From Pseudorhodobacter sp. MZDSW-24AT (lineage in GTDB: Bacteria; Pseudomonadota; Alphaproteobacteria; Rhodobacterales; Rhodobacteraceae), in contig NZ_PGOI01000001.1 in NCBI RefSeq assembly GCF_002794355.1, forward strand, positions 248,001 to 312,000: DNA of 64,000 nt. Direction: 5' to 3'. Below are positions 19,435-39,396 of the stretch, piece by piece. Both the position numbers and the translations under genes were made by a program. The notes below the pieces were generated by a model. The model was not told where the DNA came from, did no database searches, and was given only the letters and a program-made list of their open reading frames with translations. How positions within the stretch are numbered: position 1 is the stretch's first letter; every line of letters begins with the position of its first letter.

Positions 19435-21069
19435 TCATCCTTGCTCGGCGGGCAAGAGAGCGCCAAGGTTTTTGCCAAACATCTCCATCAGGATGCCGAG
19501 ACGGGTTTGCAGGCACTCCGGCTCGGGCCATGTGCGCGCGGCGAAATCGGCGATCAGACTGGCATAGACAGCGCGCCGGTCAGGCGGGATGAAGGCGCCG
19601 GCAAGCGCACCGGCGCTGCGGGCGGCATACCAATCGGTCAGCAGATCCAGCAAGGAAAAGCCCGGCGCGCCAAGCGGCAGATCCGGGTCGGTCGCAAAGG
19701 CGGGCTTGTCACGCAAGGCGAGCGCCTGAAGATCGCCGGTGCTGCGCCCTTGGACGAAGCTGCGCAGGTCTTGCGGCCAGTCGCGCGGGAGGAAGCGGTG
19801 CTGCACCAGCTCGCGGATGTGGAAATAGAGGAATTCCGGATAGCTCCGGGCGGCCAGCCAGTCCGGCCCCTCCGTGGCCGCAAGGCCGTAGAGCGGAAAG
19901 ACGGCATCAAAGCCCGAAAAGTCGATCATCTGCGGGGTGATCTGAAGACCCGAGGCATCGGCAACCACGTGCAGAGACGCGGGCGGGAAGGCGACAGGCG
20001 ACGGCACCGCGATATTGGTGAGCGCGGGGCCATCGGCCGGGCCTTGCGCTTGGCCCGAAAAGTGCAGGTGGCCCGAGAAATGCGTGCCGATGCCCGTGGC
20101 GGCGATGCGCGCGGTGGTGGCGGGCGTGGGGTTGCGCTGTGCCGAAGCGGTGGCGCCGAACAGCGCCCGCTCGCCCGCCAGCGTGCCTTGCAGCACATCG
20201 GCCACCGGATAATGCGAAAAGCAGATCAGGGTCTTGCCCGCAGCCTTGGCGCGCCGCGCCACATCGGCCATCCAGTCGAGCAGAAAGGGTTTGTGCTGGA
20301 TCAGCGCGTTCCACCCGGCATTGGTGCTGTCTTCAAAGGCCTGCGGATCGGTGTTGTCAGGCCTGCCGCTGCGCGGCGCGAACACATTGGCATCGATAGA
20401 GAGCAGCCAGAGGCCGGGTTCAGGCTCGACCAGATAGGAGGTGTCGATCTGGCGATGGGTGGTCAGGCCATCGGGCGCGGTCATGGTGAAGACGCGGGTT
20501 TCGGCAGCATCCTCGGGGCCGAAGGGGCTTTCCCAATGCAGATCACGCGGATCGCGCATCAGCCCGTGATCGCCCCACAAAGGGATAAGGCCTTGATAGC
20601 CTTGGCAGCCCATGCGCGGATCATAGACGGTGGACGCGTCGGCGCTGGCTTGCGCCTCGGGATGGCTGCTGACGGTGACACGCCCCCCGGTTGCGGTAAG
20701 AAAGGCCTTGGCATGGGGCCGCCCGCTCATCCCGTAGACATCGTGATTGCCGGGGGTAAGGAAGAACCGCATCCCATGGCGAACCCGGTAGTCTTGCAGC
20801 ACGGCAAGCGCGGCCTGCATGCTGGGGGCTTGCCCGTCATCGGTGAGATCGCCGGGGATCAGCACAGTGCGAATGCCGGCAGCCGCGCAGGCATCAAGCG
20901 CCACCGGCAGGGCAAGCGCGCTTTCGTTGAAGATGCGGGTGGATTCGGCGCTGTCCTGCCGTGGCCGCAGGCAGGCGCCCGCGCGCCCTTGAAACGGCAC
21001 GCCCGCCACCGGGTAGCCGGGAAACAGGGCATGGTAATGCGGATCGGCCAGAACGGCGAAACGGTGCAT
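19435..21069 (-). CDS. Calcineurin-like metallophosphoesterase with C-terminal extension
   Basis: A 544-aa enzyme of the binuclear metallophosphoesterase superfamily. Metal-ligand motifs appear in order: LADPHYH (residues 7-13), IPGDLTDDG, TPGNHDVYG, CFSHYP and FSGHLHFSG. No signal peptide is visible, so it should act in the cytoplasm. The last ~170 residues form an unassigned, mostly helical region. It follows the Na/Pi carrier gene by only 3 nt, in an operon with a tyrosine-type phosphatase. The substrate is unknown; context suggests a phosphomonoester or phosphodiester from the adjacent transport systems. Confidence 0.85.
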   Translation of the reverse strand: MHRFAVLADPHYHALFPGYPVAGVPFQGRAGACLRPRQDSAESTRIFNESALALPVALDACAAAGIRTVLIPGDLTDDGQAPSMQAALAVLQDYRVRHGMRFFLTPGNHDVYGMSGRPHAKAFLTATGGRVTVSSHPEAQASADASTVYDPRMGCQGYQGLIPLWGDHGLMRDPRDLHWESPFGPEDAAETRVFTMTAPDGLTTHRQIDTSYLVEPEPGLWLLSIDANVFAPRSGRPDNTDPQAFEDSTNAGWNALIQHKPFLLDWMADVARRAKAAGKTLICFSHYPVADVLQGTLAGERALFGATASAQRNPTPATTARIAATGIGTHFSGHLHFSGQAQGPADGPALTNIAVPSPVAFPPASLHVVADASGLQITPQMIDFSGFDAVFPLYGLAATEGPDWLAARSYPEFLYFHIRELVQHRFLPRDWPQDLRSFVQGRSTGDLQALALRDKPAFATDPDLPLGAPGFSLLDLLTDWYAARSAGALAGAFIPPDRRAVYASLIADFAARTWPEPECLQTRLGILMEMFGKNLGALLPAEQG

Positions 21070-21072
21070 GGA

Positions 21073-22752
21073 TCAGGATTTCTTCTGTTCGGGCTGCAAC
21101 CGGGTGTCGCCCAGCGCGCCGATGCCATCCAGGATGGGATAGGCGACTGAAATCAGATGCGCGTTCACCCGTTTCAGATCGCGCAGGATATCAAGGTGCA
21201 GGCTGGAGGTTTCCACCGTTTCCAGCCGCCGTTCGCGCAGGCGTTCCATATGGCGTTCGGCCGAGAGGGTTTCCATGCGGCGCACCTCGACCTTGCATTT
21301 GACAAGTTCGCGGGCAAGGTTTTCATCACGCGACAGAAACACGCTTTGCGCCACCGCAAGGATCTCGATGGTGCGCTGGTAGAACTCCGAGATCTCGGTC
21401 AGCCCTTCGGGCGAGAAGGACAGGCGGCGGCGGTCTTTCTTGACCGCGAGTTCCGAAAGGCCGGAATCGATCAGGTCGCCGATGTGCTCCAGATTGACGG
21501 CATAGGACAGGATTTCCGACATCCGCCGGATGTCATCGGCATCAAGATCTTCGCGCGACAGACGGGCCAGATAGATCTTGATGGCATTGTGCAGGCGGTC
21601 GACCTGATCTTCGGTGGCGGACAGCCGGTCATGCGCCAGATCGTCATGGCCCTGCACGGTGGCAAGGCTGAGCCGCAGCATGTCGCCCACCAGATCGCCC
21701 AGCCGCAGCGTTTCGCGCGCGGCGGCGGCCAGCGCGATGGTGGGCGAAGACATCGCACTTTCATCAAGGTATTTCGGCGCAAAATCCACGGTGGGTTGCT
21801 TGGGCATCCAGCGTTCGACAAGCGCCGAGAGCGGGCCCAGCACGGGCAGGAACACCAGCGCAAGCACAATGGAAAAGCCGACATGCGCGCCCAAGGTCAG
21901 GGCAGCGGTGTCCGCGAAATAGGGCTGCACCAGCGGCGCAAGCAAGGGCGCGGTGAGGGTAAGGACAGCCGCTCCGGCGGCGCGCACGCCAAGGTTCGTC
22001 ACCACCAGACGACGGGCCTGCACGCCTTCGGACATGACCGCAAGCCAAGGCGGGATGGCACCGCCCAGATTGGCCCCTGCCACCAACACCAGTGCAAGTT
22101 CGGCCGACACCACCCCGGCCTGCGCCAGCAGCATGACGAACAGCACGGTGGCGAGGCTGGACGAGGCAAGGGCCGCCAGCCCGGTGGCAAAGATCAGCGC
22201 GAACAGCGGCGCATCGCCCAAGCCCACCAGCACCTGCCGCACCAGAACCGAGTCGCGCATCGGCCCGGTGGCCTGCCCCATCAGCTCCAGCGCCAGCAGC
22301 ATCAGGCCAAGGCCAAGGATGGCGCGGCCGATGCCTTTGCCCCCTGCCCGGCCGCTGCGGGAAAACACCACCACGCCGATCAAGATCAGCAAGGGCGAAA
22401 GCCAGTGCAGGTCGAGCGACAGAACCGCCGCCGCAATGCTGGTGCCGACATTGGCCCCCAGCATCACCGCCTGCCCCATCGCGCCCGACAACAGATCCCG
22501 CGCGGCGAAAGAGGCGGTGATGACCGCCGTTGCCGTGCTGGACTGCACGGCCAGTGTCGCCACAAGCCCCGCGATCAGCGCCTTGACCCGGTTGGACGCG
22601 CCGCGCCCGATCCACACCCGCAGCGCACTGCCAAAGGCGCGCAGCATCCCGGTCTTGATCAGGCGCAACCCCCAGAGCAGCAGCGCCCCGGCCCCGAGAA
22701 TATCGATCAGAACAAGCGTGGAGTCGATTTCAGCAGTCCTCCAGATGGTCAA
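21073..22752 (-). CDS. Na/Pi cotransporter-family carrier with PhoU-like domain (YjbB/NptA type)
   Basis: A 559-aa protein with an N-terminal double NptA repeat and about eight to ten membrane helices. The QSSTATAVITASFAARDLL and later LASSSLATVLFVMLLAQAG repeats carry the QSSTA/SSSLA motifs. A soluble PhoU-like four-helix C-terminus follows (about residues 340-540). This is the YjbB architecture; E. coli YjbB is reported to export phosphate. The TTG start at 22752 overlaps the upstream phosphatase by 23 bp; no ATG lies nearby, so the exact start is uncertain. It sits between two phosphatase genes, which fits removal of phosphate released in the cell. Confidence 0.88.
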   Translation of the reverse strand: MTIWRTAEIDSTLVLIDILGAGALLLWGLRLIKTGMLRAFGSALRVWIGRGASNRVKALIAGLVATLAVQSSTATAVITASFAARDLLSGAMGQAVMLGANVGTSIAAAVLSLDLHWLSPLLILIGVVVFSRSGRAGGKGIGRAILGLGLMLLALELMGQATGPMRDSVLVRQVLVGLGDAPLFALIFATGLAALASSSLATVLFVMLLAQAGVVSAELALVLVAGANLGGAIPPWLAVMSEGVQARRLVVTNLGVRAAGAAVLTLTAPLLAPLVQPYFADTAALTLGAHVGFSIVLALVFLPVLGPLSALVERWMPKQPTVDFAPKYLDESAMSSPTIALAAAARETLRLGDLVGDMLRLSLATVQGHDDLAHDRLSATEDQVDRLHNAIKIYLARLSREDLDADDIRRMSEILSYAVNLEHIGDLIDSGLSELAVKKDRRRLSFSPEGLTEISEFYQRTIEILAVAQSVFLSRDENLARELVKCKVEVRRMETLSAERHMERLRERRLETVETSSLHLDILRDLKRVNAHLISVAYPILDGIGALGDTRLQPEQKKS

Positions 22753-23359
22753 TCGCGGCGGCGGCCTGACGGGCGGCTTCGATCAACATGGGTTTGGGTG
22801 TTTCGTACCACTCATCCGGCGGCAGAGCCCGCATCTTGCGCACATGCGCGATGGCATCGTCAAGGGTCGGGAACCCGTCCGGTTGCGTCTTGTGCAGGTA
22901 AAGCGCCGTGAGCGCAACCGACCGGCTGCGCCCGCCCCGGCAATGCACAAGGACATGGCCGCGCGCCCGGTTGGGATAGCTGCTGCGCTCGGGCATCACC
23001 TGTTTCAGCGCGCCGTCAAGGATGTAATAGCCCGCCAGCATCATGCGCCCCGGATTGCCGTTGCCGTCGATCAGGCCGATCTTGTAGCTGCGGATCGGCG
23101 CATGACCGACCGCGCATTTGCCAGGGGCTGCGGGATCAACCGGGTCGGCGACATAGTTGATGTCAAGGTTCACCGCGCAGTTGATGACGGTGGTGATCCC
23201 AAGGTCCGCCAGCCGCGCCACATCGCGCGCGCCATCGGAATTGCCGATATAAAGCGAAACGCCGTCCGCGCCCACGCCGGTGGCGATCAGACTTAGCGGC
23301 GTCAGCGTGGCCGCCTGTTTCTTGGGCTTGGGGTCTGAATGAAAAAGGGCGTCGGTCAT
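22730..23359 (-). CDS. Dual-specificity/tyrosine-type protein phosphatase family protein
   Basis: A 209-aa cytoplasmic protein with the CX5R catalytic loop HCRGGRSRS (cysteine 140, arginine 146) of the cysteine-dependent phosphatases, preceded by an alpha/beta domain with GNSDGARDVARL and ITTVINCAVN. It could act on a phosphoprotein, or on a small molecule such as an inositol phosphate. It is the first gene of the phosphatase-NptA-metallophosphoesterase operon. A TTGACA -35-like element and a 16-bp palindrome lie about 105-130 nt upstream, pointing to LacI-type control shared with the ABC transporter. Confidence 0.82.
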   Translation of the reverse strand: MTDALFHSDPKPKKQAATLTPLSLIATGVGADGVSLYIGNSDGARDVARLADLGITTVINCAVNLDINYVADPVDPAAPGKCAVGHAPIRSYKIGLIDGNGNPGRMMLAGYYILDGALKQVMPERSSYPNRARGHVLVHCRGGRSRSVALTALYLHKTQPDGFPTLDDAIAHVRKMRALPPDEWYETPKPMLIEAARQAAAAIDHLEDC

Positions 23360-23459
23360 GCGGGACGGTTCCGATCAGGCTGAAGGACAGGGGGGCCAGC
23401 TCAGGCGGCTGGCGAAAGAGATCTGACGCCGGGGCGTCAGCATGCGCGGGCGTAGCGGG

Positions 23460-23488
23460 AAACTTGCACAGCTGTGCAAACCTGTCAA
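23460..23488 (-). promoter_or_regulatory. Candidate promoter overlapped by palindromic operator (phosphatase operon)
   Basis: On the minus strand a perfect TTGACA (23488-23483) is followed by a 17-nt spacer and AAGTTT (23465-23460). The spacer contains most of the TTGCACAGCTGTGCAA palindrome, the classic position for repression. The -10 is weak, so the exact promoter is tentative. Confidence 0.5.
23464..23479. promoter_or_regulatory. Perfect 16-bp palindromic operator, copy 1
   Basis: TTGCACAGCTGTGCAA lies in the 279-bp gap between the phosphatase operon and the divergent LacI-type regulator. An identical 16-mer lies at 33381-33396 upstream of the fused-permease ABC operon. The repeat next to a LacI gene makes it a likely regulator binding site. 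Its central dinucleotide is GC rather than the usual LacI-family CG. Confidence 0.75.
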
Positions 23489-23505
23489 CATCCCGAGCAG
23501 ATTTG

Positions 23506-23535
23506 TTGAATCCCGCAGCGGCCTTGCTGTATAGA
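23506..23535 (+). promoter_or_regulatory. Candidate sigma70-like promoter of the LacI-type regulator
   Basis: TTGAAT (23506-23511) and TATAGA (23530-23535) are separated by 18 nt and point toward the regulator gene at 23639. The palindrome lies about 27 nt upstream of the -35. Confidence 0.45.
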
Positions 23536-23638
23536 CGAAGGAAATGCCGTTCTTGCGTGCCGTGTTCCGCGACATGCGAGGGCAGCAAGATGCCTGACGA
23601 CCGAAAGGTGAGCCTGTGACCCATCAGAGCATGACCCC

Positions 23639-24676
23639 ATGACCGACGTGGCCACGGGCAAGCAAAGGCAGCGGTCCTTTGTCAGCGCGCAGCAGGTGGC
23701 CGCCTTGGCGGGTGTGTCGCGTTCGGCGGTCTCGCGCACCTTCACCGATGGGGCCAGCGTGTCGGAAAGCACGCGGGCGCGGGTGATGGAAGCCGCCGAG
23801 GCCTTGGGCTATCACGTCAATCATCTGGCGCGCGGGCTGATCCATGACCAGTCCAACATCGTGTCGCTGGTGGTGACCGACATCAACACACCCTATCAGG
23901 CCCGGATGATCGATGCGCTGACCAGCCGTCTGCAACGGGCCGAGAAAGTGGCCATGGTCATCAACACCTCGGGTCAGGCGGAAAGCGTGGAAAAGGCACT
24001 GCGGCAGACGCTGCAATACCGGGCGGATGCCACCATCGTGCTTTCGGGCCAGCCCGCAGGATCGCTGATCCAGACCTGCCTGAACAATGGCCAGCATGTC
24101 ATCATGGTCAACCGCGATGACCCGGTGCCGGGGCCTGATACCATCATCGTCACCAACCGCACCGCCGCGCGCGAGGCTTTTGCGCAGTTGCAGGCGGCAG
24201 GCTGCCGCAAGATCGCGGTGGTGGCCTCCGAAGTGGGCACCGCCAGCGTGGTGACGCGCGAACAGGCCTTTGTCGCCGCCGCGACCGAAGCCGGGGTCGC
24301 GGTGCAGGTGATGCGCTATGGCCCGACCGCCTATGCCTCGGGCGCCGAGATCGCGCGGCGCTTGCTGGCCGGCGCGGACCGTCCTGATGGTGCCTTCTGC
24401 GTGACCGATCTTTTGGCCTGTGGTTTCATGGACACCGCGCGCAACAGCTTTGGCCTCTCGATCCCCGAGGATCTGTGCGTGATCGGCTTTGACGATATCG
24501 AGCAGGCCGGGTGGTCTTCGTTCAACCTGACAACCTTTCGTCAGCCGATCGAACAGATCGCCGAGCGGATCGTCGGCCTGTTGCAAGGACCGCCGCCCCC
24601 CAGCACCCGGCGCGAGCCGATCCGGTTTCAGGCCGAACTGGTCTGGCGCAATTCCGTGCGCGGCAAACCTGTCTGA
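23639..24676 (+). CDS. LacI-family transcriptional regulator (1)
   Basis: A 345-aa LacI/GalR-type regulator. The N-terminal helix-turn-helix, SAQQVAALAGVSRSAVSRTF at about residues 16-35, is followed by the hinge HLARGLIHDQ. A periplasmic-binding-protein-like effector domain follows, with IVSLVVTDINTPYQ, AFCVTDLLACGFM and CVIGFDDIEQAGW. The recognition helix GVSRSAVSR is identical to that of the second regulator at 38413. It is divergent from the phosphatase operon and convergent with the IMPase genes, overlapping the latter by 49 bp. The effector is probably a sugar or sugar-phosphate-like molecule imported by the neighbouring transporter. Confidence 0.93.
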   Translation: MTDVATGKQRQRSFVSAQQVAALAGVSRSAVSRTFTDGASVSESTRARVMEAAEALGYHVNHLARGLIHDQSNIVSLVVTDINTPYQARMIDALTSRLQRAEKVAMVINTSGQAESVEKALRQTLQYRADATIVLSGQPAGSLIQTCLNNGQHVIMVNRDDPVPGPDTIIVTNRTAAREAFAQLQAAGCRKIAVVASEVGTASVVTREQAFVAAATEAGVAVQVMRYGPTAYASGAEIARRLLAGADRPDGAFCVTDLLACGFMDTARNSFGLSIPEDLCVIGFDDIEQAGWSSFNLTTFRQPIEQIAERIVGLLQGPPPPSTRREPIRFQAELVWRNSVRGKPV

Positions 24677-25527
24677 GCGGGGGCCGCGCGCAAGGGCACC
24701 TTGGTGGCGCGGCTCATCAGATCGGCCAGACCGGGGGCGGCGGCCAGAACCGCGCCGCCCCGGTTCAGGCCATCGGCTTCCAGATAGGCGCAGACGCGCC
24801 CCCCTGCCTCTTCCACCAGCAAAAGGCCCGCAAGACAATCCCACGGGTGCATATGAAGCTCGGCATAGCCGTCCGAGCGGCCGTCGGCGACATAGGCCAG
24901 CCCCAGCGCGCCGGTGGCCGCGCGGCGCACATTGGCCCCGGCGTTGAGCATGGCGGTCAGCGCCTCAAGATAGGCGGCATTGGGCAGGCGGTTCGACCAG
25001 CCCAATTCCAGACAGGCGGCATCGGCGCGCGCGGTTTGCGCGACGCTGAGCGGCACGCCGTTGCGGGTGGCGCCCCTGCCCTGCCGGGCGGCGTAAAGCT
25101 CGTCATGGCTGGGGTCATAGATCGCGCCCAGCCGGATTTCGCCCCCCGCCACATAGGCGATGGAAATGCAGTAATGCGGGATGCGGCGGGCGAAATTGGC
25201 GGTGCCGTCGATGGGATCGACCACCCAGCAAGGATCGGCCACGCTGCCCCCGGTTTCCTCGCCCAGAAAGCTGTCGTCGGGGAAGCTGGCCTGAATGCGG
25301 CTGCGCACCAGATGCTCGACGGCCGCATCGGTTTCGGTGAGAAAATCCTGCGGGCCTTTCATGCCAACCTGCGGGGCAGAGGCCTCGGCAAAGGCGCGCC
25401 GCGCGACGGCACCAGCCTCGCGGATCAGATCGGCCAGAAACACCTCGCGCGCGGTGAGCGCCGCCGGGTCCAAGGTGGCGGGGCGCTGGGCGGCGGTGCG
25501 GGGCAAGGCGGAGGAGGTGAGGGTCAT
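24628..25527 (-). CDS. Inositol monophosphatase family protein (1)
   Basis: A 299-aa Mg2+-dependent phosphatase of the IMPase/FIG superfamily. Metal ligands are in GEETGG (residues 89-94), DPIDGTANF (104-112) and the C-terminal HPWDCLAG. No signal peptide, so cytoplasmic. Substrates in this family include inositol phosphates, sugar bisphosphates and histidinol phosphate. ATG at 25527 leaves 44 nt to the preceding IMPase gene. It is the last gene of the operon; its 3' end runs 49 bp into the LacI gene on the other strand. Confidence 0.9.
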   Translation of the reverse strand: MTLTSSALPRTAAQRPATLDPAALTAREVFLADLIREAGAVARRAFAEASAPQVGMKGPQDFLTETDAAVEHLVRSRIQASFPDDSFLGEETGGSVADPCWVVDPIDGTANFARRIPHYCISIAYVAGGEIRLGAIYDPSHDELYAARQGRGATRNGVPLSVAQTARADAACLELGWSNRLPNAAYLEALTAMLNAGANVRRAATGALGLAYVADGRSDGYAELHMHPWDCLAGLLLVEEAGGRVCAYLEADGLNRGGAVLAAAPGLADLMSRATKVPLRAAPAQTGLPRTELRQTSSA

Positions 25528-25571
25528 GCGAATCTCGGCTTCTTGTGGTGTGTGGGGGGGCATGCGGCGGG

Positions 25572-26468
25572 TCAGGCCCGCGCCCGGGCGGCATCGCGGC
25601 GGTCGGAAATGCCTTGCGCGATGCGGGTGAGGGTGGGGTAATTGGCGCCCTGCCCCGTGGCGATATAGCCGGGGCACAGGAAATCCGCCGCGTCAGGCGC
25701 GACCTTGCCAAGCGGCAGCGGATGATAGCTGCCGCCAGCCTGTTTCAGGATCAGGATGGCGGCGGTCACATCCCAAGGATTGACGCCAAAGCCTGCGGCG
25801 GCATCGGCCCACCCCGCCGCGACATGCGCGATCGACAGGGCCGCACTGCCGGGGCGCCGCAAGGTTGCAAAGCTTTCCGCCAGTTGCGCAAAATTCTCAA
25901 GCGCTTCGGCGCGCCCGTCGGCCCGCAGGTCGCGGGCGACGGGGTAGCCGGTGATGAGCACGGCCTCGCGCTCTTGCGCCGCCGCGCGGGCGCGCAAGGG
26001 CACCTCTCCCGCCCAAGCCCCGGTCAGATCGGCGCTGAACATCGTGCCCGAGATCGGGTCGAGAATGGCCCCCGCAAGGATCTGCCCGTCGACGACCGCG
26101 CCGATGGAAATGCACCAGAAGGCCAGCCCGCGCGCAAAATTGGCGGTGCCGTCAATCGGATCGACATACCATTGCACGCGGCCCGACCCGGTGGCCCCGC
26201 CCTCTTCGCCCAAAATGGCGGAATCGGGCATCTCGCGCAGGATAAAGGCGATCAGGCGCTCTTCGGTGGCCTTGTCATGGATGGTGACGATGTCGTGGAA
26301 ATCCACCTTGGTGTCGATGTCCATGCGCGAGCGGAAGGCCTCGATCAGCGGGCCTTGCACGGCGCGGGCCGCAGCCATGGCCACCGCGCGGCAGCGCTGC
26401 GAAAGGGCAAGAAGGGAAGGCGCCGGATCCGACGCGGCCTGTGGCCCGGGACTTTCAAGAAGCGTCAT
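25572..26468 (-). CDS. Inositol monophosphatase family protein (2)
   Basis: A 298-aa paralogue with the same complete active site: GEEGG (87-91), DPIDGTANFARG (103-114) and NPWDVTAA near the C-terminus. Outside these motifs it differs greatly from its neighbour, so the two enzymes are not a recent duplication and may split substrates. It lies downstream of the third ABC binding-protein gene, separated by a terminator-like hairpin. It should therefore be expressed at a lower level than the transporter. Confidence 0.9.
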   Translation of the reverse strand: MTLLESPGPQAASDPAPSLLALSQRCRAVAMAAARAVQGPLIEAFRSRMDIDTKVDFHDIVTIHDKATEERLIAFILREMPDSAILGEEGGATGSGRVQWYVDPIDGTANFARGLAFWCISIGAVVDGQILAGAILDPISGTMFSADLTGAWAGEVPLRARAAAQEREAVLITGYPVARDLRADGRAEALENFAQLAESFATLRRPGSAALSIAHVAAGWADAAAGFGVNPWDVTAAILILKQAGGSYHPLPLGKVAPDAADFLCPGYIATGQGANYPTLTRIAQGISDRRDAARARA

Positions 26469-26485
26469 GCAAACTCCGTTCGGTT

Positions 26486-26516
26486 AAAAAGGGAGGGCAG
26501 ACAGCGCCTGCCCCCC
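26486..26516 (-). terminator. Terminator/attenuator between binding protein 1 and the IMPase genes
   Basis: On the minus strand GGGGGGCAG and CTGCCCTCCC form a stem around GCGCTGT, followed by TTTTTAA. The hairpin begins 11 nt after the binding-protein stop. It may be leaky, allowing reduced read-through into the phosphatases. Confidence 0.75.
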
Positions 26517-26527
26517 GCGTGGCGGAC

Positions 26528-27646: not shown

Positions 27647-27694
27647 GGGGTTACCTTTGGTGTCCTAAGGCCTGTCGGCCAGTCTGTGAGGGCA

Positions 27695-31288: not shown

Positions 31289-31293
31289 TGGTC

Positions 31294-33138
31294 TTAGCTC
31301 CCCAATCCGTCGGCCAGATTGGTCTTGGTGACCTTCTGCGCCAGAACTGTTCCGAAATAGGCGACCCCGGCGATGATGAGCACCACCGCATTGGCGGCCT
31401 GGGTGTAGTTGTAATCAATGAGCCGCAGCGAATAGGTCGTCAGCACATCGGTGGCGGGCACGGCGAGGATGACAAAGAGGCTGAGCCCCTTGATCCCCGA
31501 AATGAAGGGCAGCAGCACGCCGGTCACCAAGGCCCCTTTCTGGATCGGAATGATGATGGCGGTCATGCGGCGGAACCACCCTGCCCCTGCGATCTGCGCG
31601 GCCTCTTCGGGGTCGCGGCCCAGCTGCATCATGGCCGAGATCCCGGCGCGCGAGGCATAGGGCATCTGATCGGCGATCAGCGCCAGCATCAGGATGGCGG
31701 CGGTGCCGTAAAGCGCCGGAACCGGGCCCCGCTGCACGGCAAAAAGCGACAGGTAGGCGGCAGCGAAGGCGATCCCCGGCACCAGATAGGGCAAGAAGGT
31801 GACCTGACGCAGGAAGACCGACAGCGGTTTGACAGGGGTGCGCACCACGACATAGCCCACCAGCAGGCCCAGAAGGCCGGAACAGGCCGAAGCGATGCCG
31901 ACGATCCACAGCGTGTTCCATGCCGCGCGCCACAGATCGGGTGTCAGCAGCACCCCGCTGCGCATGGCGACGGTTTCAAGATTGGTGCCGATCCAGTAAT
32001 CCAGCGTGAAGTTGGACCATGCAAAATTCGCAGGCACCCGCATCACGGTGGACAGCACCAGCGTCAGCAGCGGCAGGCCGACCGAGATCAGGAACACCGT
32101 GGCGGCAAAGCCGGTGGCCGGCAGGCGCCATTTGCCAAGGCTTTTGCGGCGCGCCATCGCGCCCTTGCTGCCCACGGTGACAAAGCGGCGCGCCTCGCGC
32201 ACCAGACGGGCATCGATCATCAGCGAGATCACCCCGATCAGCATGATCGCCCCGGCCAGCACCGCCGCCACGCCAGTCTGGCGCGAGCCGATGCTGCGAT
32301 ACAGCGAGGTGGCCAGCACATCGTATTTCACCGGCAGGCCAAGCACATAGGCCACGCCAAATTCCCCAAGGCACTTGGCGAAGATCAGGATCACCGCGCT
32401 CATCAGCGACGGCAGCATCAAGGGCAGGATGATCTGCCACGCCACCACGCGCGGCCCGGCCCCAAGGATGCGGGCGGAATCTTCCAGCTGCGAGTCAAAG
32501 CGGCGCAAGGCATTGCCGACCAGCAGGATGACGAAAGGCGTGTAATGCAGCGCCAGAATAAGCGTGATCGGCACTTGCCCATAGGCAAGCCAATCGGGCG
32601 GCGAGAAGCCAAGGTTCTCCATCCAGCCTTGCTGGCCACCGACAGAGCGGTTCTTGAACAAGGTGGTCCACGCCAGCGCAAAGGTCCAAGCGGGCAGCAT
32701 GTAAGGCACGATCAGCGCGGTGGCAAACCAGCGGCGCGCGAACATATCGGTGCGGCTCAAAAGCCAGGCAAGGATGCAGCCGATCACCAGCGAAATGCCG
32801 ATCACACTGAACGAGATGGTGAAGGTGTTGACCAGCGGTTTCCAGAACAGGTCGCTGGCCACCGGCGAGGTCAGGGTGCGCAGCACATAGTAAAAGGTGA
32901 AGCTGCCCGCAGGCTCGCCGATGCGGCGTTCATCGCCGAATTGCACGCGGCCTGCATCCAGCAGAAGCGAGAGGATCGGCACCACGATCAGATAGGCAAA
33001 AAGCAGCGCCACCAGCACGCCGATCAGCGTGGTCGGCTCGCGCAGGGCGATCTTGGCACGATAGCGCAGCACGGCGCTGCGCGAGGGCTTGGCGGCCCGT
33101 CCGGCGGGCGCGACGGTCGAAACTCCCACACCGCTCAT
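31294..33138 (-). CDS. ABC transporter fused permease (two BPD-type membrane domains)
   Basis: A 614-aa permease with about 12 membrane helices. It holds two copies of the binding-protein-dependent EAA loop region (SARILGAGPRVVAWQIILP near the middle and AAQIAGAGWFRRMTAIIIP near the end), so one polypeptide supplies both channel halves. The architecture matches FbpB, ThiP and AfuB. AfuABC in some Pasteurellaceae/enterobacteria imports hexose phosphates. ATG at 33138 has GGGGG 9 nt upstream; the GTG at 33177 has no ribosome-binding site. It is the first gene of the operon, 243 nt downstream of operator copy 2. Confidence 0.9.
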   Translation of the reverse strand: MSGVGVSTVAPAGRAAKPSRSAVLRYRAKIALREPTTLIGVLVALLFAYLIVVPILSLLLDAGRVQFGDERRIGEPAGSFTFYYVLRTLTSPVASDLFWKPLVNTFTISFSVIGISLVIGCILAWLLSRTDMFARRWFATALIVPYMLPAWTFALAWTTLFKNRSVGGQQGWMENLGFSPPDWLAYGQVPITLILALHYTPFVILLVGNALRRFDSQLEDSARILGAGPRVVAWQIILPLMLPSLMSAVILIFAKCLGEFGVAYVLGLPVKYDVLATSLYRSIGSRQTGVAAVLAGAIMLIGVISLMIDARLVREARRFVTVGSKGAMARRKSLGKWRLPATGFAATVFLISVGLPLLTLVLSTVMRVPANFAWSNFTLDYWIGTNLETVAMRSGVLLTPDLWRAAWNTLWIVGIASACSGLLGLLVGYVVVRTPVKPLSVFLRQVTFLPYLVPGIAFAAAYLSLFAVQRGPVPALYGTAAILMLALIADQMPYASRAGISAMMQLGRDPEEAAQIAGAGWFRRMTAIIIPIQKGALVTGVLLPFISGIKGLSLFVILAVPATDVLTTYSLRLIDYNYTQAANAVVLIIAGVAYFGTVLAQKVTKTNLADGLGS

Positions 33139-33380
33139 GACGGGGCGCCCCCGCGCAAGCCTCGGGCGCGGTTGCACCAGGGTGCAAGATTGGGAGCGCC
33201 CAAGGGCACTGATTGTAGCGGCATGACGTTCCTCCCGTGACGGGCCCTGCCCTCCCCGGCAGGTGACCCGACGTGTTCCCTCTGGCCCGTGCCAAGGCGC
33301 GTCCGTGACTCGCCCCGCAAACCAGAAACTTTCTGTGCAAGCTCAGCATCGGCAGGGATTGCCCTCAAGTCAAGGAGTTT

Positions 33381-33396
33381 TTGCACAGCTGTGCAA
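33381..33396. promoter_or_regulatory. Perfect 16-bp palindromic operator, copy 2
   Basis: TTGCACAGCTGTGCAA is identical to the copy at 23464-23479, and flanking A/T bases are also similar. It lies upstream of the fused-permease/ATPase/three-receptor/two-IMPase operon. The shared site predicts coregulation with the phosphatase-NptA-metallophosphoesterase operon. Confidence 0.75.
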
Positions 33397-33534: not shown

Positions 33535-34332
33535 CTAAGGCGCAAGATCGCCGCGCGGCGGCAGACTGACCTGTCGGGGATGCACGCCAAAACTGCCATC
33601 GGCACGCCGATGGTGCAGCCAATAGGCATAGGGCCCGTCGCTCAGCGGCGGCTCTTCGGTGCCGTCAAAGCCAAAGCCATATTGAAACGCCGGACTGCCG
33701 CCCACGGCGGCATAATGCCCTGCCCACTGGCTGTGAAAAGCCTGATGCACATGGCCGCACAGCAAGCGCAACGGCGTTCGATGCGCCTCTAGGAGTGCCG
33801 CCAGCCGCGCCCCGCCTTGTCGCAGGGCGCTGGCATCCCAATGCGCGTTGCCGGTGGGAAACGGCGGATGGTGCAGCAGCAGGAACACCGGGCCTTGCAC
33901 CACGGCAAGACGCGCCTCCAGCCAGTCCAGCTGGGCCGTGTCCAGCGCGCCCTCGACCCGTCCGGGGATCAGACTGTCAAGCCCCAGAAGATGCGCGCCC
34001 GCGACCTCGGCTTCAAAGTGCAAGGTGTCGGGCGCGGCATAGGGGATGGTGCTGTCAAACGCCGCCCGCATCGGACCGCGCTTGTCGTGGTTGCCGGGCA
34101 CCACGAACACGGGCATCGGCAGCGGCGCAAGAATGTCGCGCACCAGCGCATAATCGGCGTCCGATCCGCCATCCGCCACATCGCCGGTAATCAGCACCGC
34201 ATCGGGCGCCTGCGGCAGGGCCAGCAGATCCGCCACCACGCGGGCGGCCATCTGCGGTGCATCGAGGCGCACGGGCGCGGTTTCCGGCGCGCCCGCGCTG
34301 ATGTGCAGATCCGAGAGATGGGCAATCAGCAT
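33535..34332 (-). CDS. GpdQ/CpdA-like metallophosphodiesterase
   Basis: A 265-aa cytoplasmic class III phosphodiesterase. It starts MLIAHLSDLHISAG and has GDVADGG, VPGNHDKRG, LLHHPPFPTGNAHWD and CGHVHQ, the ordered metal ligands of the binuclear site. The HHPP-x-x-GNAxxD segment closely parallels GpdQ, which hydrolyses glycerophosphodiesters; the fold also includes 3',5'-cyclic nucleotide phosphodiesterases. It is the last gene of an ABC transporter operon, 5 nt after a permease gene, so its substrate is probably what that transporter brings in. Confidence 0.88.
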   Translation of the reverse strand: MLIAHLSDLHISAGAPETAPVRLDAPQMAARVVADLLALPQAPDAVLITGDVADGGSDADYALVRDILAPLPMPVFVVPGNHDKRGPMRAAFDSTIPYAAPDTLHFEAEVAGAHLLGLDSLIPGRVEGALDTAQLDWLEARLAVVQGPVFLLLHHPPFPTGNAHWDASALRQGGARLAALLEAHRTPLRLLCGHVHQAFHSQWAGHYAAVGGSPAFQYGFGFDGTEEPPLSDGPYAYWLHHRRADGSFGVHPRQVSLPPRGDLAP

Positions 34333-34337
34333 GGGGC

Positions 34338-35162
34338 TTACCTTCCGATCCGCGACAGCACATCGGCCTTCAGGAACCGCTCGATCACCAGCATGAACCC
34401 GATGGACGGGATCAAAAGGATCAGCGCGGTGATGGCGGCGATCTGGTAATTCCCGCCCATCGAGGCGTTGAACATCAGGATCGGCAACGTGGTGATGTCG
34501 GGGGTGCCGACAAAGAAGGTGCCGGTGAATTCGTCGATGCTGTCAAGGAACACAAAGATCGACGCCGCGACAAGGCCGGGGAACGCCTGAGGCAAGGTGA
34601 TGTCCCAGAAGGTGCGCAAGAGCGCAGCGCCAAGGTTGCGGGCGGCCTCTTCCATCGTGCGGTCGACGGCGGAAAAGGCGGCGGTGGCGATCCAGACGGC
34701 ATAGACAAGCCCGGGCAGCGAATGCACCAGCACCACGCCGGTATAGGTGCCGTTCAGCCCAAGGCCATAGAACATCTGCGCGATGTTCACAAAGATCGGC
34801 AGGCTGGGAAAGGCCTGTGGCAAAAGGAAGATCAGCATGATCAGCGCGCGCGCGGGCAGGCGCAGCCGCGCCAGCGCATAGCCCGCAGGCACCGCAAGCG
34901 CCATCGACAGCGCCACCGTCGCCAGCGCGATCCAGACCGAGTTGAAGAGCGAGGTCCACGCCCCTGCGCGCGGGCGGAACACCCGCGCCCAGAAGTCAAA
35001 GCCGAATTCGGTGGGGTAACGCGCCGGAAAGAACCACTTTTCAGCAAAAGCCCAAAGAAACAGGTTCGTCAGCGGCCCGAACACCACAAAGGCGCAAAAG
35101 CCGATCATCACGGCGGGCATCAGATGGGAAGCCCCGCGCCGGGCAAGCTGTGCAATCGCCAT
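34338..35162 (-). CDS. ABC transporter permease, second transporter (inner-membrane subunit B)
   Basis: A 274-aa permease with six predicted helices and the EAA loop EEAARNLGAALLRTFWDITLP. It belongs to the binding-protein-dependent permease family of the PotC/spermidine-phosphonate type. It starts next to the companion permease stop, with essentially no gap, and precedes the GpdQ-like gene by 5 nt. The segment FVFLDSIDEFTGTFFVGTPD is typical of these PotC/UgpE-like subunits. Confidence 0.9.
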   Translation of the reverse strand: MAIAQLARRGASHLMPAVMIGFCAFVVFGPLTNLFLWAFAEKWFFPARYPTEFGFDFWARVFRPRAGAWTSLFNSVWIALATVALSMALAVPAGYALARLRLPARALIMLIFLLPQAFPSLPIFVNIAQMFYGLGLNGTYTGVVLVHSLPGLVYAVWIATAAFSAVDRTMEEAARNLGAALLRTFWDITLPQAFPGLVAASIFVFLDSIDEFTGTFFVGTPDITTLPILMFNASMGGNYQIAAITALILLIPSIGFMLVIERFLKADVLSRIGR

Positions 35163-35163
35163 C

Positions 35164-36030
35164 TTAACGCACCCCTTCCTTGTGCTGGCTCAGCGTCATC
35201 CGCAAGTAAACGTAAGCGGCCACGGCTGTGATCAGGTAGGAGAACAGGCCCAGCGCATTGGCGACCGCGTAATCGCCGTAATAGGTCACCCGATGCGCCA
35301 TCATCGCCGTCATCATGGTGGGATTGCCCGCAATCACCATCAAGGGCACCGACAGCACCGAAAGGATGGTGACCAGCGACAGGATCAGCCCGACCAACAG
35401 CGTGCCACGCACTTGCGGCAGCACGATCTGCAACAGGCAGCGCAGGCGCCCTGCCCCCATGTTGCGCGCGGCCTCGATGGTCGAGCGGTCGACCGAAGCC
35501 ATCGCCCCCGCCAGCAGCAGCGTCACGAAAGGCACCTGCTTCCATGCGAATGTCAGCACCAACCCGCGCCAGTCCAGCAGGCTTTGCGCCAGCGCAGGGT
35601 CCATCAGGCCGGAATCGATCAGCAGGCCGTTCATCAGCCCATTGCGCGCCAGAAAGCTGCGCGCGGTTTGCCCCGCCACGATGAACGGGATGAACAAGGG
35701 CCAACGATAAAGCCAGCGCAACGCCGTCACCGCCCAAGGCGTGGCCCCCAGCGTGAGATACCCCGCAATCGCAATCGAGATGACCGAGATCAGCGCCAGC
35801 GAGCCCAGCGTCACCAGCACGGTAAAGATCAGGTCACGGCCATAAAGCTCGATGGCGGTGCGCAGATGCGCGGTGGTCAGCCCGCCTTCGGCATCGACAA
35901 AGGCAAAGATCACCGACCGCGCCAGCGGCACCACATACAAAAGCGCAATCGCCAAAAGCGCGGGCGCAATCAGCAAAAGGCCGGGCAACATCCCGCGCAA
36001 GGGCGACGGAGGGGCGTGGACGGTGGACAT
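35164..36030 (-). CDS. ABC transporter permease, second transporter (inner-membrane subunit A)
   Basis: A 288-aa permease with about six helices and the EAA loop IEAARNMGAGRLRCLLQIVLP. Start ATG at 36030 (MSTVHAPPSPLRGMLPG) has GAAGG about 10 nt upstream; the longer frame to 36096 lies in the hairpin region and is rejected. It lies downstream of the binding-protein gene and pairs with the permease encoded 2 nt later. Confidence 0.9.
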   Translation of the reverse strand: MSTVHAPPSPLRGMLPGLLLIAPALLAIALLYVVPLARSVIFAFVDAEGGLTTAHLRTAIELYGRDLIFTVLVTLGSLALISVISIAIAGYLTLGATPWAVTALRWLYRWPLFIPFIVAGQTARSFLARNGLMNGLLIDSGLMDPALAQSLLDWRGLVLTFAWKQVPFVTLLLAGAMASVDRSTIEAARNMGAGRLRCLLQIVLPQVRGTLLVGLILSLVTILSVLSVPLMVIAGNPTMMTAMMAHRVTYYGDYAVANALGLFSYLITAVAAYVYLRMTLSQHKEGVR

Positions 36031-36063
36031 CGGGCGCAGACCTTCGGGAAACGGATGGAAAAC

Positions 36064-36093
36064 GCCGGGGCGACGGCAGCGCCGCGCCCCGGC
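36064..36093 (-). other. Attenuator-like hairpin after the second transporter's binding-protein gene
   Basis: GCCGGGGCG and CGCCCCGGC form a 9-bp stem, followed on the minus strand by GTTTT. It is 6 nt past the binding-protein stop. It could reduce read-through into the permease genes. Confidence 0.65.
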
Positions 36094-36099
36094 CAAGGG

Positions 36100-37230
36100 T
36101 CAGTTGGCAACCTGCCGTTCGTAGGCTTCCAGAATGGTGCGAAAGTAATCCGCCTGCGGCATCGCCAGCCCGCGCTCGGCCAGCACTTCGGGCGAAACAT
36201 CCGTGAACAGGGCGCTCCATTCCTCGGCCGTCAGGTTTTCCTTGACCGCATTGGCATCGATGCCCGGCAGCCAGTTGAAGCGGCGCACGATGCCTTCGGC
36301 CTGCACCTCGGGCGAGGTGGCCAGCTCGATGAACTTGACCGCCAGATCGGCCTCAGCCGCCTTTTCCGGCACCACATAATACATCGGCTGTCCGGGCATC
36401 CCCGGCGCGGGGATCAGAAGCTTGAGGTCCGGGTTCAGGCGGCCATCGGCAACCCAGGTGTAGAACATGTCCATCCAGACCGGACCCATGGCGATTTCAC
36501 CACGGTTCATCGCATCCAGCGTGCCCGCATTGCCGGGGGTGATGGTGGCGACGCTGTTGAACTCTTTCAGGCTGGCCAAAGCCGGGCCCCAAGACTCGGC
36601 GGCGGCGGCATCGAACGGCCCGCTGCGCAGCGCATCGGCCATGTCGGAAAAGGCATACATCCAGCCAAAGACAAAGCCCACGCCCGCCATGCCGCCGGTG
36701 ATGCCGTTATAGCCGAACTGACCGGGGTTGGCCTTGGCCCAGTCCACCAGCTCGGCATAGCTTTGCGGCGGGTTGGGCACCAGCGCGGGGTTATAGGCAA
36801 TGGCGATTTGGCTTTGGAACATCGGCATCACATAGCCGCCCACATCCACGCCCAGCGCGTTCTCGGCGCTGCCCGTGGTGACCAGATCGCCGGTCGCGGC
36901 GCGGTCACGGTAGGATTGCAGCAGACCTTCGGTCACCATCTGCCCGGCCATGCGCTGATGCACCACGCCGACATCGACATCCCAGACGTCATTGTCCTTT
37001 TGCGCGGCCAGCTTTTCATACAGCGCCTGGCTGCCGCCATCGCCGGGGCCGGTGCCCAGCGCGCGCACGGTGACGCCGGGGTTCTGTTCCTCGAACAAGG
37101 GCCCGAGGTAATCGTTGATGTAATCCACCATATTGGTGTCGCCCGCTGTGACCACATTCAAGGTCTGGGCGGCGGCAGGAAGGCTGAGGACGGCACTGAA
37201 GGCCGCGCCGAGAAAGACAGAACGTTTCAT
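36100..37230 (-). CDS. ABC transporter solute-binding protein, second transporter
   Basis: A 376-aa periplasmic receptor with signal peptide MKRSVFLGAAFSAVLSLPAA (cleavage near AAAQ). The mature part TLNVVTAGDTNMVDYINDYL and the later GPVWMDMFYTWVADG and YYVVPEKAAEADLAVKFIE are typical of PotD/YnjB-like extracellular binding proteins. It is not close to the three paralogues upstream. ATG at 37230 has GGAG 8 nt before. It follows the ATPase gene by 25 nt. The GpdQ-like enzyme in the same operon suggests a phosphodiester ligand. Confidence 0.88.
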   Translation of the reverse strand: MKRSVFLGAAFSAVLSLPAAAQTLNVVTAGDTNMVDYINDYLGPLFEEQNPGVTVRALGTGPGDGGSQALYEKLAAQKDNDVWDVDVGVVHQRMAGQMVTEGLLQSYRDRAATGDLVTTGSAENALGVDVGGYVMPMFQSQIAIAYNPALVPNPPQSYAELVDWAKANPGQFGYNGITGGMAGVGFVFGWMYAFSDMADALRSGPFDAAAAESWGPALASLKEFNSVATITPGNAGTLDAMNRGEIAMGPVWMDMFYTWVADGRLNPDLKLLIPAPGMPGQPMYYVVPEKAAEADLAVKFIELATSPEVQAEGIVRRFNWLPGIDANAVKENLTAEEWSALFTDVSPEVLAERGLAMPQADYFRTILEAYERQVAN

Positions 37231-37255
37231 TGGCTAGTCTCCGCTGTGGATGGGA

Positions 37256-38263
37256 TCAGTTCGGCAGCAACTTCTGGTCGGCGCCAAACGCCATGAGCGA
37301 TGCGGTCGGCACGGCGACACACACCTGCGACCCCGGCGTGACAGGCACGTCGGACATCGCCGAAATCACCTCGGCTCCGCTTGCAAGCTGAAGGTGATAG
37401 CCCCCGCCCGTATAGGCACAGTCCTGAACCGTGCCATGGCGGATGAGGGAATTCTGCGGGGGCTGCGCATGGATGCGGGCATCGCTGCTGCGAAAGCCCA
37501 AGGTCTCGCCCGCCACCGGATCATCGGGGCGCGCGACCACCACATTGTCGACGCCCAGAAAGCGACCCGCGTCCAGATCGGCGGGGCGGGTGTACAGGTC
37601 TTGCGGGGCGGCGACCTGCACCACCTCGCCGGCGCGCATCAGGACGATGGTATCGGCCATCGCCAGCGCCTCTTCCTGATCATGAGTGACCATGATGGTG
37701 GTGATGCCCAGCCGCTGTTGCAGGCGGCGCAGTTCCCCGCGCAGATTGCGGCGGATGGCGGCATCAAGGTTCGACAGCGGCTCATCCAGCAGCAGGATCG
37801 GCGGGTCGATGATCAGGGCCCGGCCCAAGGCCACGCGCTGGCGCTGCCCGCCCGACAGATTGGCCACCTTCCGCGCGCCATAGCCGGACAGCCCCAGCAT
37901 CTCCAGCATCGCCTCGGCCCGCGCCTCGCGTTCCGCCCGGGGCACGCCGCGCAGTTTGAGCGGATAGGTCAGATTGCCCGCCACCGTCATATGCGGCCAC
38001 AGCGCATAGGATTGGAACACCATCGCGGTGCCGCGCTTTTCCGGCGGCAGAGCGGCGATGGAGCGCGCGCCAAGCCGGATATCGCCCGACGCAGGCGGCG
38101 CAAATCCCGCGATTGAACGCAACAGCGTGGTCTTGCCACAGCCCGAAGGGCCCAGCAGGCAGGTGAAGCTGCCCGCAGGCACATTCAACGTCACATCATG
38201 CAGGATCTGGGTGCCTCCCAAACGAATGGAAAGCCCCTGCAGCTCCAGCGCCTCGACTCCCAT
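37256..38263 (-). CDS. ABC transporter ATP-binding protein, second transporter
   Basis: A 335-aa ATPase with Walker A GPSGCGKTT near residue 38, LSGGQRQR, Walker B ILLLDEPLSNLD and MVTHDQEEA, plus a TOBE C-terminus. I chose ATG at 38263 (MGVEALELQGLSIRLGG) because a strong GGAGGA lies 4 nt upstream; an in-frame ATG at 38305 lacks that. It is the first gene of the operon ATPase-receptor-permease-permease-phosphodiesterase. Confidence 0.92.
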   Translation of the reverse strand: MGVEALELQGLSIRLGGTQILHDVTLNVPAGSFTCLLGPSGCGKTTLLRSIAGFAPPASGDIRLGARSIAALPPEKRGTAMVFQSYALWPHMTVAGNLTYPLKLRGVPRAEREARAEAMLEMLGLSGYGARKVANLSGGQRQRVALGRALIIDPPILLLDEPLSNLDAAIRRNLRGELRRLQQRLGITTIMVTHDQEEALAMADTIVLMRAGEVVQVAAPQDLYTRPADLDAGRFLGVDNVVVARPDDPVAGETLGFRSSDARIHAQPPQNSLIRHGTVQDCAYTGGGYHLQLASGAEVISAMSDVPVTPGSQVCVAVPTASLMAFGADQKLLPN

Positions 38264-38327
38264 TTCGTCCTCCCTCGACGCGGTTTTGAAAGCGTGTGCA
38301 TTCATCGTTTGCGATTCTTTCCCTTTG

Positions 38328-38388
38328 TGTCAAGGCTGATTAATCTTGAAATGTAACAGCCCTGTGTCTATCGTGAAATCGCGTTCAC
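38328..38388. promoter_or_regulatory. Divergent control region with a LacI-type operator (38373-38388)
   Basis: An imperfect palindrome, GTGAAATCGCGTTCAC (38373-38388), has the GTGAAnnCGnnTTCAC form with central CG expected of LacI-family operators. It lies 25 nt before the second LacI gene. On the minus strand a TTGACA (38333-38328) could be the -35 of the ABC operon, though no good -10 follows. One operator could control both directions. Confidence 0.6.
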
Positions 38389-38412
38389 TTTCTCGAACCA
38401 GTTGGGGGCAGC

Positions 38413-39396
38413 ATGCGGGTGACGGCGGATGATGTGGCGGCGCGGGCCGGGGTGTCGCGTTCGGCGGTGTCGCGGGCCTTTACCGAAGGGGCCAGCATCC
38501 AGCCCGACAAGCGGGCCCATATCCTGCAAGTGGCGGAAGATTTGGGCTATCGCCCCAATCTGATGGCGCGCAGCCTCACCGGCGGCGCCACCGGGCTGAT
38601 CGCGGTGGTGGTGGGGGCGCTCTCCAGCCCTTATGAAAGCTGGTTTCTGGACATCCTGTCGCAACGCATCCGCAGCCGGGGTCTGTGGCCGCTCTTGGTG
38701 CCGGTCTCGCCGGGACAGGAAATCGAACCCGCGCTCGACCATGCGCTGGCCTATCAGGTCGATGGCGCGGTGATCGCGGCGGGATCGGTGAACCAGAAGC
38801 TGGCCGAACGCTGCACGGCCAATGGCGCGCCCATCGTGGTGGTGGGCCGCGTGCTGGACGGCGGCGGCGCCGATTCGGTGTGTTGCGACAACCGCGCCGG
38901 GATGGCGATGATCGCCGAGCGGCTGGTGGCCACAGGCCGCCGCCGCATCGCCTGGATCGGCGGGCGCGCCGACACCTTTTCCAATGTGGAACGCTTCGAG
39001 GGGTTGACGGCAGCGCTGGCGGCGCAGGGCCTTGCGCTGACCGACACCCGGCGCGGCGATTACACCACCGACAGCGGGATGGTGCAGGCGCTCGCACTGC
39101 TGACCGCGCCCAGTCGGCCCGATGCGATTGTCTGCGGCAATGATGCCATGGCCATCGGCGCCATCGCGGCCGCCCGCCGTCTTGGCCTGCGCGTGCCCGA
39201 GGATGTGGGGATCTGCGGTTTTGACGATATTCCCGCCGCCGCATGGGAGCCGTTCAGCCTGACCACCGTGGCCAACCCAGTGGCCGATACGGTGGATGCG
39301 GCGCTCACTCTGCTCACCCGCCGCATCGCGGGCGAAAAAGGAGCGGTGTCCACCATCCGCCTGCCCCCTGCCCTGCGCTTGCGCCAAAGCCTCTAG
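38413..39396 (+). CDS. LacI-family transcriptional regulator (2)
   Basis: A 327-aa LacI/GalR-type repressor, with HTH VTADDVAARAGVSRSAVSRA at residues 3-22, hinge LMARSLTGG, and an effector domain including DAIVCGNDAMAIGAI and VGICGFDDIPAAAWEPF. It is divergent from the second ABC operon, which it probably represses. Its recognition helix GVSRSAVSR is identical to regulator 1, so cross-talk between the two operons is plausible. It converges closely (22 nt) with the P-type ATPase gene. Confidence 0.93.
   Translation: MRVTADDVAARAGVSRSAVSRAFTEGASIQPDKRAHILQVAEDLGYRPNLMARSLTGGATGLIAVVVGALSSPYESWFLDILSQRIRSRGLWPLLVPVSPGQEIEPALDHALAYQVDGAVIAAGSVNQKLAERCTANGAPIVVVGRVLDGGGADSVCCDNRAGMAMIAERLVATGRRRIAWIGGRADTFSNVERFEGLTAALAAQGLALTDTRRGDYTTDSGMVQALALLTAPSRPDAIVCGNDAMAIGAIAAARRLGLRVPEDVGICGFDDIPAAAWEPFSLTTVANPVADTVDAALTLLTRRIAGEKGAVSTIRLPPALRLRQSL

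Follow-up and report, generated by a model that had tools for sequence, protein, structure and literature searches.

A conserved candidate gene cluster for import and dephosphorylation of phosphorylated sugars or polyols in Pseudorhodobacter, and its independent neighbour

We analysed a 64,000-nucleotide stretch of DNA from Pseudorhodobacter sp. MZDSW-24AT (contig NZ_PGOI01000001.1, positions 248,001 to 312,000), hereafter called the window, in which positions 19435-39396 carry two ATP-binding cassette (ABC) transporters, one with a fused permease and one with two single permeases, together with five hydrolase genes, a phosphate carrier and two LacI-family regulators. A sequence-only reading had joined these genes into one 20-kb system for import of phosphorylated organic compounds, their dephosphorylation and the export of phosphate. 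Its gene list proved accurate in both position and family, and no unrelated genes were found between the listed genes. All named genes lie on the minus strand except the two LacI genes, and the stretch is bounded by an OmpA-like gene (18593-19357, plus strand) and a P-type ATPase gene (39419-41434, minus strand). The gene set consists of two units, unit A (19435-33177) and unit B (33535-39396).

Unit A begins with a fused ABC permease (31294-33177, likely start 33138) that contains two BPD_transp_1 stretches, followed by an ABC ATPase (30134-31288; PF00005, TOBE_2) and three paralogous receptors, SBP1 (28941-30095), SBP2 (27723-28895, with an uncertain start that is likelier to be at 28862 or later) and SBP3 (26528-27646). 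All three receptors match PF13531, and SBP2 and SBP3 are 57% and 59% identical to SBP1. The sequence-only reading had named neither this set of three paralogues nor the two exact palindromes described below. Two enzymes of the inositol-monophosphatase (IMPase) family come next, IMP2 (25572-26468; PF00459, 156.8 bits) and IMP1 (24628-25527, in an open reading frame that opens at 25677; PF00459, 196.6 bits), both scoring above the family cut-off. The LacI2 gene follows on the opposite strand (23639-24676, plus), recognised by its translation and by a BLAST match (expectation value, E, 4e-39) to a Pfam-confirmed LacI protein. The remaining minus-strand genes encode a CX5R phosphatase of the dual-specificity type (DSPc; 22730-23359; PF00782, 37.8 bits against a cut-off of 33.5), a carrier of the NptA/YjbB type (21073-22752, start uncertain, with 22713 used here) and a calcineurin-like metallophosphoesterase of 544 amino acids (19435-21069; PF00149, 33.2 bits). 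The carrier combines Na/Pi cotransporter repeats (PF02690, 132.8 bits) with PhoU domains (PF01895, 59.9 bits) and also matches NF037997 (111.7 bits, cut-off 50).

Species genomes were scanned with SBP1 alone, and the best 80 of 155 relatives represent 77 distinct loci, whose proteins were matched to those of the window. The ATPase and the fused permease are each present in 76 of these loci, the CX5R phosphatase in 74, an IMPase of either kind in 71 (IMP1-like in 70 and IMP2-like in 57, as labelled by best hit), a LacI2 homologue in 70, the metallophosphoesterase in 58 and the NptA carrier in 45. Permease and ATPase are missing only from L024, a 7-kb contig. Absences mean little in five of the 77 loci, whose sequences fall short of 15 kb. 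The hosts of these 77 loci include Pelagibacterium, Devosia, Ensifer, Rhizobium, Martelella, Microvirga and several Rhodobacteraceae, as well as the gammaproteobacteria Saccharospirillum and Marinomonas, with receptor identities of 52-80%. Unit A is a coherent and conserved cluster.

Three loci without the CX5R phosphatase (L031, L035 and L068) keep IMPases and the metallophosphoesterase. Six loci show no IMPase match and carry only the transporter, the receptor and the CX5R phosphatase; of these, L056, L061 and L067 are full-length, whereas L044, L060 and L065 are contigs of less than 7 kb. Because the CX5R phosphatase is kept even in IMPase-less loci, and overall in 74 of 77, no other enzyme accompanies the transporter as constantly. 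In four of the 77 loci we also noted, by eye, a HAD-hydrolase-like gene close to the unit A IMPase genes (L068, 11785-12696, with relatives in L035, L051 and L066), perhaps a further phosphatase-type family.

The catalytic motifs of the unit A enzymes are intact. In the metallophosphoesterase, residues D9, H11, D74, N108, H109, H286, H334 and H336 are invariant among 36 aligned rows, and we take them to be the metal ligands; they form the DxH, GDxxD, GNHD, H and GHxH motifs of calcineurin-like metallophosphoesterases. A structure model of this enzyme (predicted local distance difference test score, pLDDT, 93.3) finds Lmo2642 (2xmo, E 2.1e-15) as its best structural match in the PDB, followed by sphingomyelinase-like phosphodiesterases and GpdQ. 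For the CX5R phosphatase, C140 and R146 of the C-X5-R loop are invariant and the general acid D98 is present in at least 90% of an alignment of 39 rows (A3), 38 of which are readable; one row (L071) is a wrong-frame reading frame that was left in. The residue before the catalytic Cys is the usual His in the window protein and in 16 of the 38 readable rows, and is Asn, an unusual form, in 22. IMP1 has inositol-1-monophosphatases as its closest solved relatives (5zhh, E 1.2e-43).

The hydrolases had been described as lacking signal peptides, a claim for which we used a crude scan of hydropathy, taking the highest mean of 12 residues within the first 45. The metallophosphoesterase, CX5R enzyme, IMP1 and IMP2 reach 1.06 to 1.44 on this scale, whereas the window's four receptors score 1.86 to 2.43. 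Among relatives, values of at least 2.0 are found for 53 of 78 receptors, one of 36 metallophosphoesterases and none of 39 CX5R rows. From these values it is likely that the hydrolases lack signal peptides, and they look cytoplasmic. The four enzymes of unit A have no strong N-terminal signal on this crude scale; the GpdQ-like enzyme of unit B, at 1.74, lies close to receptor SBP1.

The SBP1 model (pLDDT 93.9) has an AfuA/FbpA-class fold, with ferric-binding proteins of the HitA/FbpA type as its best Foldseek matches (top match 6ivy, E 3.1e-13), the glucose-6-phosphate binder VcA0625 at rank 30 (E 6.9e-11) and AfuA, the receptor of the hexose/heptose-phosphate ABC importer AfuABC (PMC4546632), at rank 40 (E 1.8e-10). 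A profile of the unit A receptors also aligns to AfuA by hhalign (probability 95%, E 3.8e-8). In this profile alignment the AfuA sugar residues H205 and D206 are replaced by A269 and K270, and no Glu occupies the place of E229. The same residues are well kept among AfuA proteins, as evident by the presence of F.HD in 38 and PCEGTG.E in 36 of 39 AfuA sequences used as a control. Given these substitutions, the unit A receptors do not appear to be of the AfuA type that binds hexose 6-phosphates.

The same substitutions bear on the possibility that unit A transports ferric iron or another non-phosphate ligand, with the phosphatases as bystanders. The ranking of ferric-binding proteins among the fold matches speaks for such a role, as does a Rhodobacter sphaeroides gene by the name of afuA that belongs to an iron regulon (PMC4618611). 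Where AfuA has its H-D pair, the unit A receptors carry A-K within the stretch STAKFR, which lacks the paired Tyr ligands of FbpA according to the profile alignment to AfuA (used here in place of an FbpA superposition). Ferric receptors presumably hold their Tyr pair at this very place. The receptors are therefore probably not ferric receptors, and with the CX5R phosphatase linked in 74 of the 77 loci, we regard iron transport as highly improbable. Across 78 aligned receptor rows, K64, K84, R96, K270, R272, K332 and R371 are invariant and K190 is present in at least 90%, and these positive residues would fit an anionic ligand.

Evidence for common control of unit A comes from an exact 16-base-pair palindrome, TTGCACAnnTGTGCAA, that lies ahead of both of its operons. 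One copy (TTGCACAGCTGTGCAA, 23464-23479) is located between the phosphatase and LacI2 genes, and the other (TTGCACAGCTGTGCAA, 33381-33396) is upstream of the fused permease; a weak operator-like site at the permease start (TTGCACCAGGGTGCAA, 33172-33187) has two mismatches and may be due to chance. With at most one mismatch allowed, a scan of 1.54 Mb recovered 55 sites (22 exact) in 35 of the 77 loci, and a reversed control yielded none. Each of the 55 precedes a cluster-type gene by no more than 500 bases, and none falls inside a coding match. Of these sites, 29 lie ahead of a permease match (two also ahead of LacI2, and one, in L075, ahead of a more distant permease homologue), 14 belong to the LacI2/CX5R phosphatase pair, eight to IMP1, two to NptA/LacI2 and two to LacI2. 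In the Pseudorhodobacter genome itself, the two copies in the window are the only exact palindromes, and tolerance of up to two mismatches gives 13 places, compared to two in the control. Significance from the window alone was rejected as an argument, given that with three mismatches allowed, nine of 100 shuffled sequences reach two matches; the case for the operator rests for this reason on the exact palindromes and on the related loci.

This genome has a single one-mismatch site, on a contig here called C24, accompanied by a two-mismatch site at a distance of 31 bases. The one-mismatch site stands ahead of an afuA-afuB-afuC-IMPase operon that lies beside a LacI gene of its own. The AfuA protein encoded there closely matches solved AfuA (E 6.6e-84) and VcA0625 (E 1.2e-83). 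The likeness to AfuABC on which the sequence-only reading had drawn holds for the receptor fold and fails for the sugar residues of the receptors, and the C24 operon, a true AfuABC-IMPase operon, has the same type of operator. Five of the 77 loci (L005, L008, L011, L063 and L072) have AfuA and AfuB homologues at a distance of a few kb from unit A, and an AfuA relative at E 1e-60 is present in 38 of 198 genomes of the family. Within 6.5 kb of afuA at 39 further loci of these genomes, several of them on short contigs, we found an IMPase in 13, a LacI homologue in four and an NptA-type carrier in three. A second AfuA homologue of the Pseudorhodobacter genome (contig C1, 13357-14349), 51% identical to the C24 copy, is accompanied by afuB and afuC; the 19 kb around it hold no operator site with at most two mismatches.

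The C24 operon, in a locus (L094) of which about 1500-14033 covers it and its neighbours, is adjoined by genes with a likeness to inositol catabolism, namely iolC (326.9 bits, cut-off 300), an iolB-like gene (156.9 bits, below its cut-off of 205), an iolE-like gene (173.9 bits, below its cut-off of 290) and a class II aldolase-like gene. This arrangement brings up the possibility that unit A serves inositol (poly)phosphates: breakdown products of phytate would be imported intact via the three receptors and stripped in the cytoplasm by the CX5R enzyme and the metallophosphoesterase, the IMPases would yield myo-inositol as a carbon source, and a large phosphate surplus would be exported. Such a route agrees with the relatives of IMP1, with the invariant K84, K270 and R272 (and the largely kept K190) of the receptors, and with the presence of an exporter, for which several phosphates per carbon skeleton would account. 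Against it, enzymes of the IMPase family accept a wide range of substrates, and the CX5R profile matches VHR-type phosphatases best (VHR/DUSP3, E 1.8e-11), with no entry named phytase among the 55 PDB sequences listed, a comparison that concerns names only. As proof of an inositol substrate the iol linkage was dropped, since at the thresholds used no iolB, iolC or iolE homologue is found near any of the other 39 afuA copies or in any of the 77 unit A loci. For lack of this repetition we keep inositol phosphates only as a rival, and a distinctly improbable one.

We consider it probable that unit A is a LacI-controlled route that imports phosphorylated sugars or polyols intact, dephosphorylates them in the cytoplasm and exports phosphate. 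This reading starts from gene content, conserved linkage, a common operator sequence and intact catalytic motifs, together with a receptor fold taken from a model, and is the simplest account of the cluster. In such a scheme LacI2 would repress unit A by acting at the palindrome, with binding and effector both presumed. The likeliest ligands are sugar or cyclitol phosphates, which might bear two or more phosphates; the three periplasmic receptors would pass such related compounds to the single fused-permease ABC importer. The metallophosphoesterase, the CX5R phosphatase and the IMPases would then remove the phosphates in some order, the freed sugar or polyol would enter general metabolism, and surplus phosphate would leave via the NptA/PhoU carrier, presumed to work in the export direction. 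The corresponding proposal for the whole 20 kb finds support in unit A, where transporter, phosphatases, carrier, LacI gene and operator are linked.

Several observations weigh against this account. In addition to the missing AfuA sugar residues, we recognised no enzyme of carbon degradation, either within the cluster or among the extra genes common to at least three loci. Within the limited flanks and contigs, 32 of the 77 loci show no NptA carrier, and sequence does not fix the transport direction of NptA-type carriers. No operator site with at most one mismatch is present in 42 of the 77 loci, many of which have LacI2 homologues of only 38-41% identity, and 26 of the 39 afuA copies, some on short contigs, have no IMPase nearby. 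Unit A is also rare: at E 1e-60 its receptor occurs in five of the 198 family genomes, is absent from the sole other genome of the same genus in that sample, and is found among 289 genomes of a class sample in the Pseudorhodobacter genome only.

Some of these points would equally suit phosphate scavenging, in which the organics are imported mainly for their phosphate and the NptA-type carrier imports or balances phosphate. A cluster with several phosphatases, no recognised carbon-degrading enzyme and a carrier of either possible direction could be expected from such a function. The conserved LacI gene and operator are less easily reconciled with it. LacI-family effectors are carbohydrates for the most part (PMC4052901), and no two-component Pho regulator is present among the identified genes, although no scan for Pho boxes was made and Pho control may yet apply. 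Phosphate scavenging appears quite unlikely, and the purpose of a LacI-controlled import route would presumably be carbon rather than phosphate.

Unit B comprises an ABC ATPase (37256-38305; PF00005), the receptor SBPa (36100-37230; PF13416, 75.1 bits), permease a (35164-36096, likely start 36030; PF00528), permease b (34338-35162; PF00528) and a GpdQ-like phosphodiesterase (33535-34332; PF00149, 65.8 bits), with a divergent LacI1 gene (38413-39396, plus strand; PF00356, PF13377) whose product is the putative regulator of the unit. GpdQ is the best solved relative of the phosphodiesterase (2dxl, residues 1-243, E 6.8e-31), and phmmer found no solved relative of SBPa at E 0.001. The receptor of unit B, at E 1e-60, is encoded in five of the 198 family genomes and 14 of the 289 class genomes. 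Of these 14, 13 lack the unit A receptor, and both receptors occur together in two of the five family genomes, namely that of Pseudorhodobacter and one of another genus (G050). Of the conserved linkage for which the sequence-only reading had proposed to look in related genomes, unit A gives a clear case, and unit B is mostly encountered without unit A.

The idea that units A and B function as a single system draws on their adjacency in the window and on G050, where a region of ~30 kb carries unit A, afuABC and unit B and a one-mismatch operator is located between LacI1 and unit B. Among 18 unit B loci that we compared (the window's own, four from the family and 13 from the class), the permeases are followed by a GpdQ-like gene in four (the window, G026, G050 and, at 34%, G091), by an IMPase gene in two (G086 and G237), by a gene for an MBL-fold-looking protein (judged by eye) in two (L185 and L186), and by no evident phosphoesterase gene in ten. 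The GpdQ-like and IMPase genes speak for a single system. The ten are at odds with it, as are the absence of an operator with at most two mismatches ahead of unit B in the window, the absence of such a site around unit A in G050, and the use of a different LacI protein. On the class-sample counts, 14 of 289 genomes for the receptor of unit B versus the Pseudorhodobacter genome only for that of unit A, we abandoned a single 20-kb system as the leading explanation. It is retained as a rival because G050 holds both units close together, and we judge it unlikely.

Matches to unit B were also sought within the 77 unit A loci, in flanks that end at 10 kb and leave out of view a unit B that is ~20 kb away, as in Wenxinia marina (L027, NZ_KB902288.1). 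GpdQ, SBPa, both permeases, LacI1 and the iol proteins have no match of at least 40% over half their length. A first round of matching had placed the unit B ATPase in eight loci and permease b in two, and a later round gave matches of at least 40% to this ATPase in 44, which we read as cross-matches between ATPases. Because it mostly occurs without the unit A receptor, and because a phosphoesterase gene follows its permeases only in some loci, unit B appears to be an independent importer that is sometimes located near unit A. Its purpose is probably related to that of unit A.

Other features of the window lie outside both units. Two cobalamin riboswitches are present on the minus strand (14808-14993, 110.3 bits; 9664-9897, 78.1 bits), the former directly upstream of a nitroreductase-family gene (14081-14764). 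A TAXI-type tripartite ATP-independent periplasmic (TRAP) transporter is encoded at 15103-18674 (minus), with a fused permease (TIGR02123, 679.7 bits) and a receptor whose family match begins only at about residue 147 of a 474-amino-acid reading frame. On the other side, Mrp/Mnh-type Na+/H+ antiporter genes (41441-47420, minus) adjoin the heavy-metal P-type ATPase gene.

Phosphate is commonly released from organic compounds outside the inner membrane. If our reading of unit A is correct, whole-molecule import, internal dephosphorylation and expulsion of phosphate would give organic phosphorus one more way back to phosphate in soil and water. The cluster recurs in many bacteria and may allow its hosts to use phosphorylated sugars or inositols and to shed the extra phosphate. 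Its three receptors and four phosphatases are concrete targets, with a ligand that is open to simple binding and activity assays.

In the open-licence literature available to us, we recognised no published description of this gene combination. Several known systems come close to its parts. AfuABC shares with unit A the receptor fold and the combination of receptor, permease and ATPase (PMC4546632). Unit A differs in that its receptors, three in number, are devoid of the sugar-binding H, D and E, and in the phosphatases, carrier and LacI gene attached. The pyridoxal-phosphate importer P5PAB likewise uses an AfuA-related receptor for a phosphorylated organic compound, whereas the word phosphatase is absent from the main text of its description (PMC8427247). 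The P5PAB receptor (6wce) was matched by the AfuA protein of C24 and is missing from the matches obtained with SBP1 and with the SBP1 profile. The logic of unit B can be regarded as closest to that of UgpBAECQ, which takes up glycerol-3-phosphate and glycerophosphodiesters by combining ABC import of an intact phosphoester with a hydrolase, although the receptor and hydrolase presumably belong to families other than those of unit B. UgpBAECQ also differs by being PhoB-dependent and not LacI-linked (PMC11389368). The unit B enzyme resembles GpdQ of Enterobacter aerogenes over the region given above, and differs in its linkage to an ABC importer; its GpdQ-like activity is predicted. The carrier of unit A has the Na/Pi core and PhoU domains of YjbB/NptA carriers, of which YjbB is a phosphate exporter (PMC11389368), and is set apart from them by its location inside an organophosphate import cluster.

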